Part shown: positions 10,442 through 33,689 of the stretch, in pieces
Layout: every line of letters starts with the position of its first letter
How positions within the stretch are numbered: position 1 is the first letter of the stretch
Assembly: GCF_000204415.1 (NCBI RefSeq)
Contig: NC_015416.1
Span: 1,488,001-1,552,000, forward strand
Length of the DNA: 64,000 bases
Direction: 5' to 3'
Source of the DNA: Methanothrix soehngenii GP6
GTDB taxonomy: Archaea > Halobacteriota > Methanosarcinia > Methanotrichales > Methanotrichaceae
Translations under genes and position numbers: made by a program
The notes under the pieces: model-generated
Databases searched by the model: none
Told to the model about the DNA's origin: nothing
Seen by the model: the letters and a program-made list of their open reading frames with translations, nothing else

Positions 10442-10852
10442 CTAGATTAGCTGCACATTCTTGGTCAATTTTGCCCTTTCATACAGCTTTCTATCCAGCG
10501 TCAAGAGTGGCACTTGGCTTTCCTCAGCCGCAGCCAGAAAGAGTGAGTCGTAGAAAGCAGTCTTGGCCTCTAAAGAGATGATGTATGCCTCCATGGTCAG
10601 ATCCTCAGCCCGGATGAGTTCACACGCCTCTGAGATGAAACTCTGGCATTTCTTAAAGGCCGCTAATGTCAGGTCTTTATCCCCACCACAGAAGGCGACT
10701 TGCTTGCTGGCCACATTCCCAACCTCAGCAATAGCAAGATCCAGGGTGATCAAGTCGGATTTTGCAGCTGCTTGTATTGCCCGCGTTGAAGCATCTTCTC
10801 TAAAGAACATAGCAGCGATTACACTTGAATCAAGGACCACCTTATCTGGCAT
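10442..10852 (-). CDS. vapC: VapC toxin, PIN-domain ribonuclease, 136 aa
   Basis: The PIN fold is complete. The first acidic residue lies in VVLDSSVIAAMFF (D8), further conserved acids in LAIAEVGN (E42) and in the helix around residue 94, and the C-terminal acids in TAFYDSLFLAAAEE (D100) and LLTLDRKLYERA (D118). Known of the family: Mg-dependent endoribonuclease that blocks translation, held inactive by VapB. It overlaps vapB by 11 bases, so the two are translated together. GC-rich repeat copies flank the pair. Confidence 0.9.
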   Translation of the reverse strand: MPDKVVLDSSVIAAMFFREDASTRAIQAAAKSDLITLDLAIAEVGNVASKQVAFCGGDKDLTLAAFKKCQSFISEACELIRAEDLTMEAYIISLEAKTAFYDSLFLAAAEESQVPLLTLDRKLYERAKLTKNVQLI

Positions 10853-13586: not shown

Positions 13587-13958
13587 CTACTTACCTATCG
13601 ATTTTACAAAGGCCACAAGCTCTTCAGAGGTAACGCCTACCTTTGCGAGTGTTGCTAGCAGCCCTTCATCTTCAGTAAGAGCTTTTGCTATTTCATAGGC
13701 TGCAGCATACGCTTTATCATGATGATCTACATGTACAAAAACGATGAAATCGCCGAATACGCCGTAAATAATCACAAAAGGATCTACATGGTCGCCTCTA
13801 AGGCCCTTCAAGTTGTGGCTTTTGGGTTCTCCTATTTCGGGATTTTCACATATCGCTTTGATCTTCTTCCCAAACCTTTGCTCCAAAGCAGCATCCTTTT
13901 TCGTCAGCTTCTTGAATTGCTTATGAAAATGACTTGGAAGGAGGGGCCTAAATGCCAT
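13587..13958 (-). CDS. RelE/ParE-superfamily toxin-like protein, 123 aa
   Basis: Residues 1-90 follow the RelE fold: a first helix pair (FHKQFKKLTKKDAALEQRFGKKIKAI), the GEPKSHNLKGLRGDHV turn typical of RelE toxins, and strands FVIIYGVFGDFIVFVHVDHHDKAY. The extra C-terminal 30 residues (LLATLAKVGVTSEELVAFVK) are not part of the minimal fold. Known of the family: ribosome-dependent mRNA cleavage or gyrase inhibition. A putative antitoxin gene lies 21 bases upstream on the same strand. Confidence 0.75.
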   Translation of the reverse strand: MAFRPLLPSHFHKQFKKLTKKDAALEQRFGKKIKAICENPEIGEPKSHNLKGLRGDHVDPFVIIYGVFGDFIVFVHVDHHDKAYAAAYEIAKALTEDEGLLATLAKVGVTSEELVAFVKSIGK

Positions 13959-24429: not shown

Positions 24430-24501
24430 TACTTAAAGATAGTGGATGATTAGCGCCCGGATATTCGATTTCAAAATGAGTCTGTGTATATCAAAATAAG
24501 T

Positions 24502-25539
24502 TTAATATGTTTTGATTCTATCATCTATCCTTAATGGAAATGAATACGGATTTTTAATTCTAACTCCTTTTGAATAATCCTCTACGTTATAATTTTCCGG
24601 CACGGCATCATAAACACATAAGCCTTCTATTGTTGATGTTGCCGTATTAAGAGCCAAATTGCTAATTTTTGTCCCCATAGATGCAAATGATATATTATAT
24701 TTTTCTTGTGGAAAATCCGCAATAATCTTACCTAAATCGCATAAAATTGTTTGATATCCATGAGATGGTGTATATCTTATTTCTATTGAATCTTTTCTCA
24801 AGGGCAACTTGCATGCCAATTCTTCACCAACTTTTCTTGCATGACCGTTCCATTTTGCATGATTATCTGTATCATCTCCCCTTGGAACCATTAAAATTAC
24901 CTCATCTGGATCAACATCTTCAGCCAGCAAATGAGCTCTTTCTAATTCATGACCAGTAAACATGATTAAGACGTCTTCTTTTGATGGATCATGATTCCTG
25001 CCGAGATCCGGAAAGTAGTTTTTTTTCTCCAATCCCTGAGAAAGATTTTTTCCGTATTCCATTGGCTCAAAATAGATTATCTCTCCACTTGTATACTGAA
25101 ATGCCTTCATGAGATATGAACCCAAGTTTCTTGTTAATGTACTCATGTCGAGATAAGTATATCTAACAACCAATTCACTATCAATTTCTAATAACTTATC
25201 TAATACCTCTCGAGGGTTGTGAAAATCACACTCTATGAAATAATATGATTTGATGTCACGGTTTTCGAGAAATTTCGTAATATTTTTTTTATGTTCTACG
25301 ACTTTCTTCCGACAAGTACCAGTATCTATTAGATAAAACACATTGAAATATATTTTCTTTTGCTTTAGGATCGATGAGATCCATTCTGTATTTAAAATGC
25401 ACTTTATCCCGACAAGATCTCGGTCTTCAAAACTCAAAGAACCAATATAATTAATTTTATCCTTATTTTTATTTCGCACCTCAGAAATTAACGAGAGAGT
25501 AGATTGAGAGCTTAATATTCTGTTTTTCTCTTTGTCCAT
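24502..25539 (-). CDS. tandem Rossmann-like protein, possible nucleotide sensor, 345 aa
   Basis: I do not recognise the family. The protein seems to consist of two similar halves. The first has INYIGSLSFEDRDLVGIKCI, RYTYLDMSTLTRNLGSYLMK and IIYFEP; the second has VLIMFTGHELERAHLLAEDV, YNISFASMGTKISNLALNTA and GLCVYDAVPENY. Strand-helix spacing and the S-T-L-T / M-G-T-K turns resemble CARF-like or SAVED-like ligand sensors, but this is an inference from pattern alone. It is AT-rich, has no membrane segment, and lies 26 bases after a 134-residue gene, so the two form an operon. Confidence 0.55.
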   Translation of the reverse strand: MDKEKNRILSSQSTLSLISEVRNKNKDKINYIGSLSFEDRDLVGIKCILNTEWISSILKQKKIYFNVFYLIDTGTCRKKVVEHKKNITKFLENRDIKSYYFIECDFHNPREVLDKLLEIDSELVVRYTYLDMSTLTRNLGSYLMKAFQYTSGEIIYFEPMEYGKNLSQGLEKKNYFPDLGRNHDPSKEDVLIMFTGHELERAHLLAEDVDPDEVILMVPRGDDTDNHAKWNGHARKVGEELACKLPLRKDSIEIRYTPSHGYQTILCDLGKIIADFPQEKYNISFASMGTKISNLALNTATSTIEGLCVYDAVPENYNVEDYSKGVRIKNPYSFPLRIDDRIKTY

Positions 25540-25565
25540 TAAGCTGCACCATACTTATCCTAGTC

Positions 25566-25970
25566 TCAACCTTCTCCTCTGATTTTCTCTCTAATATCTT
25601 TACGTAATTCGCCTCGGAATTTCGCATCTAAAATCTTTTTTGGCAAGCGATCGTTAGCTTTTCTGCTAAAGAATTCTTGAGCCAAATTTTTATTAACCAT
25701 CACCTCTGCCTCACCATAACTTATCCACTCTATGCTTTTATCACTTGTTTTAACGGGGACTTTTCCGGTTACCTTTGTGATATTGGCAAAAATAGAAACC
25801 ATTTCAAATAGAGCTAGCGCATCTTGCTCTCCAATATTAAGTTTTCTCTTCAAATTATCAATTGATAAACTAATTTTTTTGTTTTCGTGTCCTGTAAAAT
25901 AATCCTCGATTATGGCGGTCAGATCCGATTCACCTAATTTCTTGTCTTGAACAATCTGACGCCATGGCAT
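25566..25970 (-). CDS. small helical partner protein of the Rossmann-like gene, 134 aa
   Basis: A basic, mostly helical protein. Residues 14-70 look like a winged helix (SDLTAIIEDYFTGHENKKIS, IDNLKRKLNIGEQDALALFE), and the tail is rich in Lys and Arg (FRGELRKDIREKIRGEG). A TATA-like box lies 25 bases before the ATG, so it is the first, leaderless gene of a two-gene unit. The role is unknown; a DNA- or RNA-binding partner is possible. Confidence 0.55.
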   Translation of the reverse strand: MPWRQIVQDKKLGESDLTAIIEDYFTGHENKKISLSIDNLKRKLNIGEQDALALFEMVSIFANITKVTGKVPVKTSDKSIEWISYGEAEVMVNKNLAQEFFSRKANDRLPKKILDAKFRGELRKDIREKIRGEG

Positions 25971-25990
25971 AAAGGATAGTTATACAAAAT

Positions 25991-25999
25991 CTATTTAAA
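25991..25999 (-). promoter_or_regulatory. TATA box of the two-gene unit
   Basis: GTTTAAATAG on the minus strand, centred 25 bases from the ATG at 25970. Confidence 0.5.
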
Positions 26000-26152
26000 C
26001 ATTCCGTTTCATTCAGCGAATTATAATGGGGAATTCATGAGAGAACTGAAAAGCCGTTCAGATAAATCAGAAATGATAGGTTATAGTTTTATAACTTTTT
26101 TTCAGGTATTATATTAGGAAAATATATAAATACCAATTCTATTATTTGTGAT

Positions 26153-26250
26153 GTGTCCTGGGTCGGTATTATTGCAGGTATTTTAATTATATTATATAAT
26201 AAAATCTCTAAATATATTTGGTGGCGAGATCTAAGAGAGGATTTAAAATG
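26153..26250 (+). CDS. possible small one-helix membrane peptide, or 3' end of a broken gene
   Basis: One frame reads VSWVGIIAGILIILYNKIS then KYIWWRDLREDLK and stops at TGA 26248-26250, which overlaps the ATG of the next gene (ATGA). It contains one hydrophobic helix with a positively charged end. A GTG at 26153 is the only usual start; the open frame reaches back to a stop near 26083, so a 5' part may be lost. Confidence 0.3.
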
Positions 26251-26643
26251 ACCTCATTTAGACCCAAACTTACTGATAATGATAAATATATCTTAAATAA
26301 ATATGGGATAAGGGAATATATTTCGCTTGCAGCCAAGAGCGAAAATCACGAGGCATATAATTTATTGCTGGCCGCAGCCCATTATTTAGATGAGTTTAAT
26401 AATAAATTAAGTAATGAAATAGCATTTAAGTTATTTAATCATTATATGTATAATAGAATATATTATTTAGAGCCTAATGGATTTACGATTCGAGAAAGTG
26501 AATTATCTGCGATTTATAATATTAGGGAAAAAATTAAAAAGATTGCTGAAGTAGAGGGAAAACAAGATTATGATATTGTCGAGCGTGTAAACGCACTGAT
26601 TTTAAATATTTTGATTTCGGAACGTTGGTGGAATCCCAGCTAG
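26248..26643 (+). CDS. small protein of unknown function, 131 aa, with IS630 in its stop codon
   Basis: An AT-rich, helical protein (DKYILNKYGIREYISLAAKS; HYLDEFNNKLSNEIAFKLF) ending ILISERWWNPS. The frame opens at a GTG at 26218, but ATG 26248 overlaps the stop of the small upstream frame as ATGA, so coupled translation makes it the better start. The IS630 element inserted into the TA of the stop codon; because the IS begins with G, TAG is restored and the protein is unchanged. No family recognised. Confidence 0.55.
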   Translation: MTSFRPKLTDNDKYILNKYGIREYISLAAKSENHEAYNLLLAAAHYLDEFNNKLSNEIAFKLFNHYMYNRIYYLEPNGFTIRESELSAIYNIREKIKKIAEVEGKQDYDIVERVNALILNILISERWWNPS

Positions 26644-26670
26644 TACAGCCGGGCTTAAATAAGCCCAATT

Positions 26671-27405
26671 TTAGATAGTAAGTGCCTTCCCTCGATATGT
26701 CCATTTGAATGGCTTTGCCATTGTCTTGTTGAAGTACTCGACAAACGCCAGAACCTTGGCGTTCAGATCATTGATAGAAGCAAAGCTGGCCCGCCTGAGC
26801 AGCTTCCTGACCAAAATGCTAAACCATATTTCGACCTGGTTCATCCAAGAAGCGTGTATCGGCGTGTAGTGAAAGACAATTGAGTGAGATGGATCGGCCA
26901 AGAATGATTCGCGAGTTTCGATTGACTTCAGAATACCATCTCTGCCTTTGATTCCTAAGTCGATGTCCAAGTCGGATACATCTGCCACATACCTCACAAG
27001 AGACTCTGATTTATGGATATTGAGATTGTCGGCGACAAAGTGCCAGCGGGATGTGGATAAGGATCTTTCTACCACTTCCTTGATATGGGATACGAAGTCA
27101 TCTTCATTGCGCGTATCGCCGCAAGAAATGGTGTCAACCTTTCCGTTGGCTACCGCAAAGCTCACGATGAATGATTGAGTTCCATGCCTGATGTATTCAA
27201 ACTCCCTGCGTTCCACTTTTCCTGGTGCCATTGGCAATCCAGGGTGTTTGCGTTCGAGAGCTTGTACCCCAGTCATTTCATCGATGCTCATTACGACTTC
27301 ACCTTTTTGAGCCAAATTAATGGCTTGTTGATACAGTGAATTGATATCGTCTACCTTTTCGTCGAATTGATCGTCCGGAGCAGGTGTTAGCCAGTAACGA
27401 ATCAA
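26671..27405 (-). CDS. IS630 transposase, catalytic part (ORF B)
   Basis: A DDE endonuclease of the IS630/Tc1 superfamily: first Asp in [14 protein letters not shown], second in [13 protein letters not shown], and the third acidic residue in [13 protein letters not shown]. It overlaps ORF A by four bases (ATGA) in another frame, so it is made by coupling or by frameshift to give one enzyme of about 400 residues. Confidence 0.88.
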
Positions 27406-27881
27406 GTGCGGTTGGAGGTCATTTTTTTTAGAATCCTGGCAGAATGACGAGCTGAAATCGTATCTACAATGCCCCGCTTTATTACTTCTGCTGCAATCTC
27501 ACGGCTTGTCCATTGGCTAATTGGACGTCCCGATTCTTCAGGTTTCTCACAAGCCAGCTGTTGGATCTGACAAATCTGGTTTGCAGTTAAACGAGGTGGT
27601 ACTCCTGGTCTTGGCAGGTCATCCAAGCGTTCTTCAATACTCAGATCATCCAAAGAAATCGGCTGCAAGTCCAGCCATCGTCGTCGCCATAATCGAGCAG
27701 TGTCCAAGGAAACCTCTAATTCATTAGCGATTTCACGATTGTTCTTACCCATCGCAGCCAGCAAAACAATCCGTGCTCGGATAACTTTTTGCTGCCCTGT
27801 AGTATACCGACGAACAAGCAATTCCAACCCTTGGCGCTCGACGTCGTTCAAGTTGATTGCTGGTGGTTTCGGACCCGGCAT
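27402..27881 (-). CDS. IS630 transposase, DNA-binding part (ORF A)
   Basis: Helix-turn-helix domain of IS630 type ([39 protein letters not shown]), 159 residues, with the usual basic WRRRW linker. It binds the terminal repeats. It overlaps ORF B by four bases. Confidence 0.85.
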
Positions 27882-28084
27882 TGATACTCCCCTGTTGTAG
27901 AGTATCTGTCAATGATTATATATAAAACCTTATCGTCAGGTTCATCTCAGCCCGGCTGTACTAGTTTGCTTCAGAATTGGGATTGGAGCTAATATAGATT
28001 ACAGGGATTTAGCTAACTGCCCTTAAAAAATAGCGGAAAAAATCAAGCTTATAGAATTTGCATTTTTCAGTAAGTCTTTGGCCA

Positions 28085-28213: not shown

Positions 28214-29536
28214 CTTAGCACCCCATAGCTTATAATAGCCTCATTGATAAATAGGCTTTTGCCTTATAAGCTAAAGCTCTGATTCATCTTTGCAATGCTG
28301 ACACGAGCGCCAAACTCGCTCCTGATGGCCTCAGCCAGTGTCTCTGCGGCACGCTCCTCCCCATGGTTGAGGAATACCTGGCCAGGAAAGCTCCGAAAAG
28401 CGCGCAGCCATTCCAGGATCTCGCTTCTGCCGGCATGAGCGGAGAATGCGTCCATCGATTCGATCCTTGCCCGTACATCGAACTCGTGGTTCATTATCTG
28501 CACGCTTTTTATGCCGTCAAGCATCCTTCGACCGAGGGTTCCCTCTGCCTGATAGCCGACGCACAGTATTGTGCTCTCCTTGCGCTCGATGTTCTGCATC
28601 AGGTGATGGAGCACCCTTCCACCGGTGCACATTCCGCTGGCTGAGATGACTATATGCGGTTCCTTCAGCTCATTTATCGCCTTTGACTTATCCCTGGAGA
28701 GGGCATACTCCATTCCCGGAAACTCCAGTGGGCTGTCACCCCTGCTTATGAGGCCGAGGGTCTCCTCATCGAAGCATTCCGGATGGCGGCGGTAGATCTC
28801 AGAGGCGGAGATGGCCATGGGGCTGTCTACGAAGCATTTCACCCCGGAGAGCTTGCCCGCTTCTGCAAAGGGATTCAGCTCATAGAGGATCTCCTGGGTC
28901 CTACCTATGGCGAATGCCGGGATTATCACAATAGGTGGACTCGAGCACCAGCCAGTCGGCCTCGTCCACCCTTTGAGGATCACGGAGGATTGGGGTGTCC
29001 GGCCTGCCCAGGTCTCCGCTGAAGACCAGCCTCTTTTTGCCAATATCCATCTCAACGATAGTTGAGCCCAGGATATGGCCTGCATCACTGAATCGAACAG
29101 ATATGTCCCCGATATTAAATTTCTTGGAGTAGTCTAAGGATTTAAACTGGCGCATTGCCCTTTCTGCATCTCCTCTGGTGTATAGAGGCGGACGAGGAGG
29201 CCTTTTCATATTGCTGGCATGGCGGCGTTCCCTTTCCGCCGCCTCTTCCATCAGGTGGGCGGAGTCCTGGAGCATGATCTGGCAGGGAGTCCCGCAGGTA
29301 GTGGGTGGTGAGATCTGGGCCCAGTTTATGGGCTGCAAGATCAACCATCACGCATTCAGCTCTTCACAAGGATCACTGGCCAAGAGGTCTTATGACTGGA
29401 TGGCTAAAAGGGTGAAGTGGGGCGATTTGTGCCCGGAACAGTAGAGATACGATATCGTATCCCCACAAAAACCATTTGATTCATCGATGAGTCTGAAGAG
29501 CAATGTACCGGGATTTTTATGATATTCGCCTACAGT

Positions 29537-29544
29537 AAAAAAAA
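29537..29544 (-). terminator. T-tract after the TPR gene
   Basis: Eight A residues on the plus strand give a T8 run just after the original stop of the TPR gene, fitting the oligo-T terminators of archaea. Confidence 0.5.
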
Positions 29545-29548
29545 GAGA

Positions 29549-29663
29549 TCAGGCTGCATTCTCCAGCTCCTTGGTTTTGGCGAAAGCAGCATCTGATTCG
29601 GATGTGCGGCCGAGCGCCTTAAGGGCAACGCCTTTGTTGTACCAGGCTTCGGCAAACTAAGGA
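29549..29663 (-). pseudogene. lost C-terminal end of the TPR gene
   Basis: In the shifted frame this stretch reads FAEAWYNKGVALKALGRTSE then SDAAFAKTKELENAA and stops at 29549, the usual end of such TPR proteins. One extra A (minus strand, near 29682) and a CAG-to-TAG change cut it off from the main frame. Confidence 0.75.
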
Positions 29664-30962
29664 TTAATGCTGATAGCCTGATTCGAAAGCCTTGATGGCC
29701 TCATCGTATTTGCCGAGCGCCTTAAGGACAACGCCTTTGTTGTACCAGGCTTCGGCAAACTGAGGATTAATGCTGATAGCCTGATCGCAAGCCTTGATGG
29801 CCTCATCGTATTTGCCTAGGGCCGTGAGCGCAACGCCTTTGTTGTACCAGGCTTCGGCAAACTGAGGATTGATTCTGTTAGCCTGATCGTAAGCCTGTAT
29901 GGCCTCATCGTATTTGCCTAGGTCATAGAGCGCAATACCTTTAATGGTCCAGGCGAAGGCATCCTGTGGATTGATGCTGATCGCCTGATCGCAAGCCTTG
30001 ATGGCCTCATCGTATTTGCCTAGGGCCGTGAGCGCAACGCCTTTGTTGTACCAGGCTTCGGCAATCTGCGGATTGATGCTGATAGCTTGATCGTAAGCCT
30101 GTATGGCCTCATCGTATTTGCCTAGGTCATAGAGCGCAATACCTTTAATGGTCCAGGTTTCGGCTAACTGAGGATCAATACTGATCGCCTGATCGCAAGC
30201 CTTGATGGCCTCATCGTACTTGCCCAGGCGACCGAGCGCAGTGCCTTTGTTGTACCAGGCTTCGGCAAACTGAGGATCAATGCTGATAGCCTGATCGAAA
30301 GGCTTGATGGCCTCATCGTATTTGCCCAGGATACCGAGCACAGTGCCTTTGTTGTACCAGGCATAGGCATTCTGCGGATCAATGCTGATCGCCTGATCGC
30401 AAGCCTTGATGGCCTCATCGTATTTGCCCAGGTGACCGAGCGCAGTGCCTTTGTTGGACCAGGCATAGGCATACTGTGGATCTATGCTGATAGCTTGATC
30501 GTAAGCGTTGATGGCCTCATCATATTTGCCTAGGTCATAGAGCGCATTACCTTTAATGGTCCAGGCGAAGGCATCCTGTGGATTGATGCTGATAGCCTGA
30601 TCGCAAGCGTTGATGGCCTCATCATATTTGCCTAGGGCCCTGAGCGCTTCGCCCTTGTTGGACCAGGCATAGGCATACTGTGGATCTATGCTGATAGCCT
30701 GATCGTAAGCCTGTATGGCCTCATCATATCTGCCTAGGGCCCTGAGCGCTTCGCCCTTGTTGGACCAGGCATAGGCATCCTGTGGATCTATGCTGATAGC
30801 CTGATCGTAAGCCTGTATGGCCTCATCGTACATGCTCAGCATCACAAAAGCATTTCCTTTCTCCAGCCATTCCGCAGCAGTCTGCTGTCCAAATGCGGGC
30901 ATCACAACCGTCGCCAATAGCACCATAAAAGCCAATATCAATTTCAGTTTCGTCTCAATCAC
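29664..30962 (-). CDS. secreted TPR protein with near-identical repeats, C-terminally truncated
   Basis: Starting at a GTG (30962), the protein has a signal peptide (IETKLKLILAFMVLLATVV, ending AFG) followed by eleven full and one partial TPR unit of 34 residues with the consensus AWYNKGxALxxLGKYDEAIK. Repeats are almost identical at DNA level (102-bp period), so copy number probably changes easily. The frame upstream to 31073 is overlap with the broken nuclease gene and not part of this protein. A frameshift in the last repeat replaces the normal end by ESGYQH. Likely an extracellular protein-protein scaffold. Confidence 0.8.
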   Translation of the reverse strand: MIETKLKLILAFMVLLATVVMPAFGQQTAAEWLEKGNAFVMLSMYDEAIQAYDQAISIDPQDAYAWSNKGEALRALGRYDEAIQAYDQAISIDPQYAYAWSNKGEALRALGKYDEAINACDQAISINPQDAFAWTIKGNALYDLGKYDEAINAYDQAISIDPQYAYAWSNKGTALGHLGKYDEAIKACDQAISIDPQNAYAWYNKGTVLGILGKYDEAIKPFDQAISIDPQFAEAWYNKGTALGRLGKYDEAIKACDQAISIDPQLAETWTIKGIALYDLGKYDEAIQAYDQAISINPQIAEAWYNKGVALTALGKYDEAIKACDQAISINPQDAFAWTIKGIALYDLGKYDEAIQAYDQANRINPQFAEAWYNKGVALTALGKYDEAIKACDQAISINPQFAEAWYNKGVVLKALGKYDEAIKAFESGYQH

Positions 30963-31361
30963 CCACTTGGATATCCAGATAGAGGTCTCTTGTGGCATGG
31001 GTGCAACAGACCGAGCCCTTGAATCCCTCGTTGATAAAAAGAGGAATCCTGCCGCTGTGGTCGACATGGGCATGGGTGAGAATCATCGCTTTCAGTCGAT
31101 TGGGATCATGGCCAAAGCCATCCTGGTTCCGATCGGTATCGCCACCCTGAAATAGGCCTGCATCTATGCCGATTCGGAGATCCCGGGCGTGGAGGACCAT
31201 ATGCGAGCCTGTAACCCCTCCAGCCGCTCCATGGAACTCCAGCTTCATGCCCAAAGTGCGGGGGCTCATCCAAGATTAAGCTTCCGAATAGGACACAAAG
31301 CTTAAGTATATCGCAATAATTTGGTTCGTTCGAAAAAATCCGGATAGAGGGTTTCACTGCC

Positions 31362-33689
31362 ATGGCTGACCTGGAGCGATTGGGAGAATGGATTACCGGC
31401 AATCCTGTGATAATCATCGTGGCAGCAGTTCTCCTTACACTGGTATCACTTCACTATGCCCAGCAGATCGAGAGCCAGGGCATGACAACCGAGGCATTCG
31501 TCTCAAAAGACTCCGCCCTCTATCAGCTCTACGATCACCTCTACCTGGAAAACTTCGGCTCTGATGGCAATATGATACTCATCGAGGGCGATGACGTGGC
31601 AGGGGCCGAGGTCCTGTCTTCCATCCTGCGATTATCAGATCATATGCATCAGGTGGAGCATGTTCTGGGCGTCCAGAGCGCAGCCGACTGGATAGCGGAC
31701 GAGGAATACAAGAGGACGGGCATCCGGCAAATCCCCTCTCAGGAGAGGATTGACGAGATCCTGGCAAATGCAGGCACCTCCATTGCCCATCTGATGCCGG
31801 ATCGCGGCCACACCCGAATCATCATCGGCATGCCCACCACCTCCACCCTGACCGAAGAGCAGCGAAACAGGCTCCTCCTGGAAACAGAGAACGCAGTGGA
31901 CTACGCAGAATTCCCCCCGGGATACGGCGTGACCATCACCGGCGACCCCTCCTTCCAGGCGGCAATCGTGCAGATGATGAACAGCACCAATGGCCAGATC
32001 CTCGCCCTGTGCGGCCTGCTGATGATCGTAGCCCTGCTGCTCTTTTTCCGGCATGTCAGGTGGTCGCTTCTCCCCTTGCCAGTGGTCTTACTGGGGATCG
32101 TCTGGACACTGGGTGCCATGGGCCTCCTCCATATTCGCATGGGAATGACCACATTTGCCGCATTTCCCATCATGATCGGTATTGGTATAGACTATGCTAT
32201 ACAGTTTCACAACCGGATAGATGAGGAATTGTCTAAAGGCAAATCCGTTCTGCAAGCATCGACGAGAACGGTGAAATATGTGGCAATCCCGGTGCTCGTC
32301 GCCCTGACGGTAACGGAGGCGGGCTTCTTCTCCCTTCTCAGCTCCTCCGTCCCATCGACCCAGGACTTCGGAAAGATGTGCATGATCGGCCTGGTCATGT
32401 GCTACCTGTCCGCCCTTTTTGTGAACCTGACCATCCTTTATCAGTCCGAGAAGAGGTTGCCCCGAAAGAAGATGGCAGCAGCCCATTCTGAGAATGGCTC
32501 GCCAATTGGTGCTTTCATCGAGAGCACTGCCACCTTCTGCATTGAGAGGTGGAAGGCGGTGCTGGCACTGGCTTTACTTTTGGCCCTGGCGGGGAATTAT
32601 GCTGACATTCTGGTCCCCATAGAGACGAATTCCCAGAACTATATCCCCGCGGACCTGCCGCCGCTGATCGACCTGAAGCATATGAAAGATGTCTATGGGG
32701 GAACGGACTCAATCAAGTTCCTGATCCAGGCCGATGATGTCACCGATCCTGAGAACCTCAAATGGATGGACGAGTTTGGCAGCTACCTTATGAGGTCCAG
32801 AGAGGACCGGACAGAGAGGGCCACCAGCATTGCCACCTATATCAAATCGGCCAATGGGGGAGAGCTGCCCGGCGACACCACCCGGGCCAGGGAGATCATC
32901 GCCTCTCTGCCTTCTTCAGTTAGCAGCGCATACCTCAACGGTCACAACCTGGCGATAATAGATGTGAATATAGGCAATGCCCAGCTCAACCTGGGAACGG
33001 AAGGGATGGAGCGTCTGGTCCGGTCCTATGAGGATGACCTGGCCTGGCATACCCCACCGCCCGGAGTTTCCGTCCGGATCACCGGCCAGCCGGTGCTGAT
33101 GACCACGGTCATGGATGCCCTGACAGAGGGGAGGGTGGAGATGTCCCTGCTCGGCCTGTTCCTGATTTTCGTCCTGCTGCTGCTGATCTACCGGGACCTG
33201 ATCCGGGCCCTCTTGCCAGTGCTGCCCATGCTGGTAGTGATAGGCTGGATGGGGCTGGTCATGTACTACGGCGGGCTGAAGTACACCCCCCTCACCGCCA
33301 CACTGGGCGCTCTGGTCCTGGGGGTGGGTTCGGAGTACGCTATACTTATGATGGAGCGCTTCTATGAAGAGCTGGAGAATGTGGGCAATCCCATCGATGC
33401 CCTGAAGATCACAGCCAACCGCATAGGTTCTGCATTGGTGGCATCGGGGATGGCGGTCATCTTCGGCTTTGGCGCTCTGATCGCCTCTCCCTTCAACATA
33501 ATCAGCAACTTCGGAGTGGTCACGGTGATGTCGGTCGTGCTCGCCCTGGTCACCACCTTCACCGTGTTCGTAGTCCTGGCCATTAGAATGGAAGTTCAGC
33601 GTGAAGTATTAGAGAATGCAAAACTGGAAATGAAGAGAGCAATTGCACTGATCAACAATCAAAGATGGAGAAGAATCAATGGAAATTAA
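31362..33689 (+). CDS. RND-superfamily (MMPL/HAE3-type) transporter, 775 aa
   Basis: Twelve membrane segments in two halves: one after the N-terminus, a large external loop, then five clustered helices, and the same again. Conserved stretches are GIGIDYAIQFHNR in the first half and GVGSEYAILMMERFYEE in the second, both typical of the proton-relay helix 4 of RND/MMPL proteins. Archaeal members probably export lipids or hydrophobic compounds. It overlaps the next gene by 11 bases, so they are one operon. Confidence 0.9.
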   Translation: MADLERLGEWITGNPVIIIVAAVLLTLVSLHYAQQIESQGMTTEAFVSKDSALYQLYDHLYLENFGSDGNMILIEGDDVAGAEVLSSILRLSDHMHQVEHVLGVQSAADWIADEEYKRTGIRQIPSQERIDEILANAGTSIAHLMPDRGHTRIIIGMPTTSTLTEEQRNRLLLETENAVDYAEFPPGYGVTITGDPSFQAAIVQMMNSTNGQILALCGLLMIVALLLFFRHVRWSLLPLPVVLLGIVWTLGAMGLLHIRMGMTTFAAFPIMIGIGIDYAIQFHNRIDEELSKGKSVLQASTRTVKYVAIPVLVALTVTEAGFFSLLSSSVPSTQDFGKMCMIGLVMCYLSALFVNLTILYQSEKRLPRKKMAAAHSENGSPIGAFIESTATFCIERWKAVLALALLLALAGNYADILVPIETNSQNYIPADLPPLIDLKHMKDVYGGTDSIKFLIQADDVTDPENLKWMDEFGSYLMRSREDRTERATSIATYIKSANGGELPGDTTRAREIIASLPSSVSSAYLNGHNLAIIDVNIGNAQLNLGTEGMERLVRSYEDDLAWHTPPPGVSVRITGQPVLMTTVMDALTEGRVEMSLLGLFLIFVLLLLIYRDLIRALLPVLPMLVVIGWMGLVMYYGGLKYTPLTATLGALVLGVGSEYAILMMERFYEELENVGNPIDALKITANRIGSALVASGMAVIFGFGALIASPFNIISNFGVVTVMSVVLALVTTFTVFVVLAIRMEVQREVLENAKLEMKRAIALINNQRWRRINGN

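Follow-up and report, generated by a model that had tools for sequence, protein, structure and literature searches.

The window analyzed here is a 64,000-nucleotide stretch of Methanothrix soehngenii GP6 (NC_015416.1, positions 1,488,001 to 1,552,000). Two reverse-strand genes separated by 26 bp lie in an AT-rich island within it (Table 1); the upstream one encodes a protein of 134 residues and the downstream one a protein of 345 residues. An earlier note, made from the DNA letters alone, had described these two ORFs, at coordinates that we recover exactly, as a unit sharing a leaderless promoter. The TTTAAATA box is a perfect match to the archaeal TATA-like pattern and, because it stands 21 nt from the ATG of the first gene and the gap to the second is so short, a leaderless two-gene transcript is plausible; the two genes are probably cotranscribed. 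The search upstream of the pair revealed no clear operator palindrome. No ORF exceeded 159 aa in 1,000 first-order Markov randomizations of the island, and the 99th percentile was 126 aa. The 345-residue ORF is therefore beyond chance, and the 134-residue ORF lies just over the 99th percentile; its GC content by codon position (0.44/0.32/0.32) has a coding-like bias at position 1, in common with the longer ORF.

Table 1. Coordinates of the gene pair, its motifs, and flanking features in the window
Feature	Position	Strand	Description
CARF6 gene	24502..25539	-	345 aa; ATG start; intact ORF
Repeat-2 motif MGTK	24667..24678	-	Residues 288-291; motif-II-like, by conservation and fold position
Repeat-1 motif DMSTLTR	25129..25149	-	Residues 131-137; turn after fourth core strand (model)
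Partner gene	25566..25970	-	134 aa; ATG start; first gene of unit
TATA-like box TTTAAATA	25992..25999	-	Pattern match and sequence; 21 nt 5' of partner ATG
Divergent AT-rich ORF	26248..26643	+	131 aa from ATG; no recognized family
IS630/DDE_3-type element	26640..27964		26-bp terminal inverted repeats; borders island
IS630-type transposase, two ORFs	26671-27405, 27402-27881	-	

The AT-rich island itself is clear, with approximately 30% GC overall and 28 to 35% over 24500-26500, against ~52 to 61% upstream. One IS630-type element borders it, and the divergent 131-residue ORF is shortened at its 3' end where this element starts. Between that ORF and the pair, positions 26037-26251 (+) hold a small ORF with two hydrophobic segments and a frame change at a seven-T run (MRELKSRSDK...ITFF, then FSGIILGKYINT...DLREDLK). 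This may be a membrane-protein gene that has suffered a frameshift, and at its end it overlaps the start codon of the divergent ORF. Among the congeners searched, just two have the neighboring MscS-like gene, and the pair lies beside neither copy. Farther out, a metallo-β-lactamase/β-CASP gene (28264-31417, -) is apparently in pieces (N-terminal part 30955-31269, β-CASP part 28264-29088), with a 469-residue TPR ORF (29664-31073) between them. A ParE-like toxin ORF (13587-13958, -) and a PIN-domain ORF (10442-10852, -), likely toxin-antitoxin parts, lie ~11 to 15 kb from the pair.

The 345-residue protein matches the PADLOC CARF6 model PDLC01917 over residues 27 through 325 (E = 9.6e-18) and is the sole match to that model in a genome-wide search (E = 4.5e-17). 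It also matches the Pfam CARF family HFX_2341_N (E = 7e-6) at 26.9 bits, under the gathering cut-off of 30. An AlphaFold (AF2) model built from 13 relatives (pTM 0.81) reveals two β-α Rossmann-like repeats, spanning residues ~28 through 165 and ~187 through 317; the protein stops after the second. Profile comparison of the N-terminal with the C-terminal half (81 to 83% probability, P ~1e-6 to 1e-5) agrees with this duplication, which the earlier note had proposed. On VIA re-alignment the best structural matches of the model were Can2, Can1, Csm6, Card1, and Csa3 (Z 12 to 15), clear of unrelated structures; Can2 scored Z 15.0, the tandem-CARF protein Can1 Z 14.8 over 233 residues, and Csa3 Z 12.8. 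SAVED chains scored Z 7 to 8.7, below the CARF proteins. KaiC, UspE (TM ~0.2), and cation-chloride cotransporters had topped the plain Foldseek ranking and were displaced by CARF structures on re-alignment. A PDB sequence search with the protein, and with its alignment, returned no CARF match, and no metabolic family matched either protein of the pair in Pfam or NCBIfam. The identification as a tandem CARF of the already modeled CARF6 family is thus well supported: the resemblance to CARF-type sensors suggested in the earlier note holds, whereas its description of the protein as belonging to no family does not, CARF6 being in PADLOC and its ATPase associates in Pfam.

The CARF6 relatives found by profile and pattern searches come from archaea and from nine or more bacterial phyla; residue conservation was counted over 30 relatives of that range. 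In the AF2 model, STLT (residues 133 through 136) and MGTK (residues 288 through 291) each follow the fourth core strand of their own repeat, and by this position in the fold they appear to occupy the equivalent motif-II positions of two CARF ligand pockets. D131 is kept in 28/30 relatives and a K or R at 137 in 24/30; K291 is invariant (30/30). The conserved family residues E38, R40, D131, R137, Y156, E158, P159, G196, E198, R201, P211, G289, T290, and K291 are all present in the window protein. A conserved ligand pocket, which the earlier note had suggested looking for, is accordingly apparent: the residues that follow core strands 1 and 4, at the motif-I and motif-II positions (E38/R40, D131/R137, G196/E198/R201, and G289-T290-K291), are kept. 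Four family-typical residues are lost (P221, N238, P287, and Y311). Motif II is Gly-Arg-Lys in Sso2081, and its lysine is retained in Can2 and Card1 (PMC10018336); judged by position in the fold rather than by residue-level superposition, K291 would be the counterpart of this lysine. The GTS motif I typical of ring nucleases and cleaving CARFs is missing from the noncleaving Can2 and Card1 (PMC10018336). It was not found in the 345-residue protein either, and ligand binding is therefore predicted to be favored over cleavage.

A type III source for such a ligand was sought in the genome. The Cas10 palm profile (PF22335) gave no match, its positive controls did, and a home-made type III cOA signal is therefore unlikely. 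The two cas1 loci of the genome are type I CRISPR, with Cas3 and Cas7-family genes; they lie at G000:C1:2750000-2768000 (L042; Cas3/Cas5/Cas7/TM1802) and 2835000-2853000 (L043; Cas3/DevR). These results bear on the possibility that the CARF protein is a signal sink, clearing away a cyclic nucleotide signal as a ring nuclease or a sponge, with the partner its regulator or unrelated. Stand-alone CARF proteins, Sso2081/Crn1 among them, act as ring nucleases and have a Gly-Arg-Lys motif II (PMC10018336), and in repeat 2 the invariant GTK of CARF6 stands at the corresponding place; however, the motif that marks cleaving CARFs is missing and the genome has no type III system to restrain. We consider this explanation very improbable.

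CARF6 relatives have a characteristic gene neighborhood. An ORC-CDC6-like ATPase gene adjoins CARF6 in 35/35 nonredundant loci with readable flanks, the ATPase being called by Pfam PF24389 or by a profile built here; loci at contig edges or decayed (L104 through L106) were left out of the count. In L047 the ATPase is a fragment on the other strand, at the contig end, and even in a congener (G006, L101), whose CARF6 is a different one, an ATPase C terminus adjoins the gene. Many loci have an effector as well: HD-CE (PF24391; L025 and L027), PRTase-CE (PF24390; L028 and L061), or TIR, SIR2, or kinase domains fused to the ATPase (L030, L045, L032, L034, and L037). Genes for a DNA methyltransferase, an endonuclease-III-like glycosylase, or ThyX also occur downstream. 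In bacteria and archaea alike, CARF6 systems are tied to DNA modification and to the metabolism of nucleotides. A PRTase-CE-like gene, an ORC-CDC6-like ATPase, CARF6, and a ThyX-like gene recur as a four-gene cluster in L061 (5124-9593) and L062 through L065, with PF24390 tested in L061 only and PF02511 (ThyX) in L061 and L065; L048 combines the ATPase and CARF6 with an N6/N4-methylase and ThyX. In Methanophagales an HhH-GPD/endonuclease-III-like glycosylase gene lies directly 3' of CARF6 (L028, 9218-10036, assigned by Pfam; L029, 6981-7622, assigned by sequence similarity). CARF matches in L026 and L040 proved false and belong to other folds, and L039 and L041 are ordinary CARF-wHTH proteins outside CARF6. 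A literature search of limited coverage found no paper naming “CARF6” or PRTase-CE.

In the tree, the window protein groups with the HD-CE-linked archaeal CARF6 proteins of L025 and L027 and the plasmid-borne L044 of Spirosoma (support 96/91), on a very long branch (3.13). Its identity to any relative is at most 24%; a search of 25 congeners did not find it, and single-protein scans of the genome and of viral contigs returned no close relative. The long branch, together with the loss of P221 and the three other family-typical residues, is consistent with relaxed constraint.

What is unusual about the locus is its context. No ORC-CDC6-like ATPase lies beside the window CARF, and a PF24389 search of the whole genome is negative; no effector gene or domain (HD-CE, PRTase-CE, TIR, SIR2, or kinase) was found in the pair, the divergent ORF, or the nearby ORFs checked. 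The gene place directly upstream of CARF6, usually held by the ATPase, is occupied instead by the 134-residue ORFan. A search of the neighborhood for defense genes, as the earlier note had advised, thus yields CARF6 itself and neither the ATPase nor a known effector beside the pair.

The partner is basic (pI 9.3), has no family match in Pfam, PADLOC, or NCBIfam, and has no credible relative in the 393 genomes of the phylum sample, in plasmids, or in viral contigs; candidate relatives at E 0.003 to 0.1 proved to be phospholipase-D-like proteins or matches in other chance frames. Profile comparison gave no sign that it is a piece of the ORC-CDC6-like ATPase. A single-sequence model of low confidence (pLDDT 59) has the order helix-helix-helix then β-hairpin, and Foldseek with this model returns weak MarR-, ScpB-, and DtxR-like matches (best E 1.1, MarR). 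Of the basic, winged-helix-like protein anticipated in the earlier note, the basic character is confirmed; the model hints weakly at a winged helix. The partner's position invites another explanation, a two-gene defense module in which CARF senses a nucleotide and directly switches the 134-residue protein, the latter being a toxic effector and not a regulator of transcription. Effectors such as TIR, SIR2, HD, and PRTase are coupled with CARF6 in its relatives, and the partner holds the place just upstream of CARF6; its lack of an enzymatic family in all three databases argues against such a role, and its basic composition and predicted hairpin suit nucleic-acid binding better. We regard a toxic effector as decidedly unlikely.

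A strong rival is that the locus is a remnant of an HD-CE/ORC-CDC6/CARF6 system, its ATPase and effector lost via mobile elements, its CARF decaying, and the 134-residue ORF unrelated or spurious. CARF6 systems do erode: in a related genome (G102), L106 (7810-8863) holds a decayed CARF6 with kinase fragments. At the present locus, the absence, here and genome-wide, of an ATPase that adjoins every readable relative, the neighboring ORF truncated by the adjoining IS630-type element, the small, possibly frameshifted membrane-protein ORF just upstream of the pair, and the long branch all point the same way. However, the 345-residue ORF is unbroken, almost every strongly conserved pocket residue is still present, the pair retains a promoter box and tight 26-bp spacing, no ATPase fragment lies beside the CARF gene, and the partner fails to match the ATPase profile. 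We judge decay somewhat unlikely, while giving it weight because the low-confidence fold of the partner, its single occurrence, and the long branch count against a regulator. The loss of family-typical residues, the failure to find an operator palindrome, and the lack of a Cas10 palm match, Cas10 being the usual source of cOA, also weigh against that reading.

The explanation we prefer, and put forward tentatively as a possibility, is that an orphan CARF6 sensor has been redeployed with a small partner, the two genes together making a regulator under ligand control (a “split Csa3”). The window CARF would have descended from the ORC-CDC6-like ATPase/effector/CARF6 conflict systems, nearest their HD-CE-carrying archaeal branch, and would now be uncoupled from ATPase and effector. 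Like the two CARF domains of Can1, its two repeats may make up a pseudodimer within a single chain; one nucleotide signal, cyclic or of another adenylate type, would be held between the conserved pocket motifs. The ligand-bound protein would then control DNA binding by the 134-residue protein, and the pair would respond to ligand by regulating transcription, resembling in function Csa3 or HFX_2341, the latter a CARF-wHTH protein that regulates without CRISPR linkage (PMC11434293). The CARF identity of the larger protein is well supported; the mechanism (ligand, partner fold, contact between the two proteins, and regulatory output) we infer, and likewise the reading of the pair as a sensor system. 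We think it unlikely that the pair is a minimal tandem-CARF sensor with a separate DNA-binding partner that works, in a methanogen, without Cas10, an ORC-CDC6 ATPase, or a known effector on a nucleotide signal of unexplained origin. The earlier note's “candidate undescribed sensor system” survives in part: the sensor family is known, and the context, with no ATPase and an ORFan partner, is indeed out of the ordinary.

A functional CARF6 copy lacking its ATPase would mean that sensing had been split off from activation by the ATPase, and could show which signal CARF6 systems sense and how CARF sensors become regulators; if a remnant, the locus would exemplify ordinary defense-island decay. Among known systems, those that combine CARF6 with ORC-CDC6-like (PF24389), HD-CE (PF24391), and PRTase-CE (PF24390) proteins share the tandem-CARF family of the window protein, whose nearest tree neighbors come from HD-CE/ORC/CARF6 loci of archaea and from an ORC/CARF6 locus on a Spirosoma plasmid; in contrast to these conflict systems, the present locus has no ATPase and no recognized effector, and an ORFan instead. 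Like Csa3 and HFX_2341, it pairs a CARF sensor with a basic, putatively winged-helix protein. In Csa3 and HFX_2341, CARF and wHTH form one chain, whereas here one chain holds two CARF repeats and a second gene encodes the putative wHTH. Like Can1, the tandem-CARF nuclease of Thermus, the window protein has two CARF domains in one monomer, but it carries no nuclease or nuclease-like domain and has no type III CRISPR link. The gene pair is thus no new kind of system but a variant of a known defense-signaling theme.
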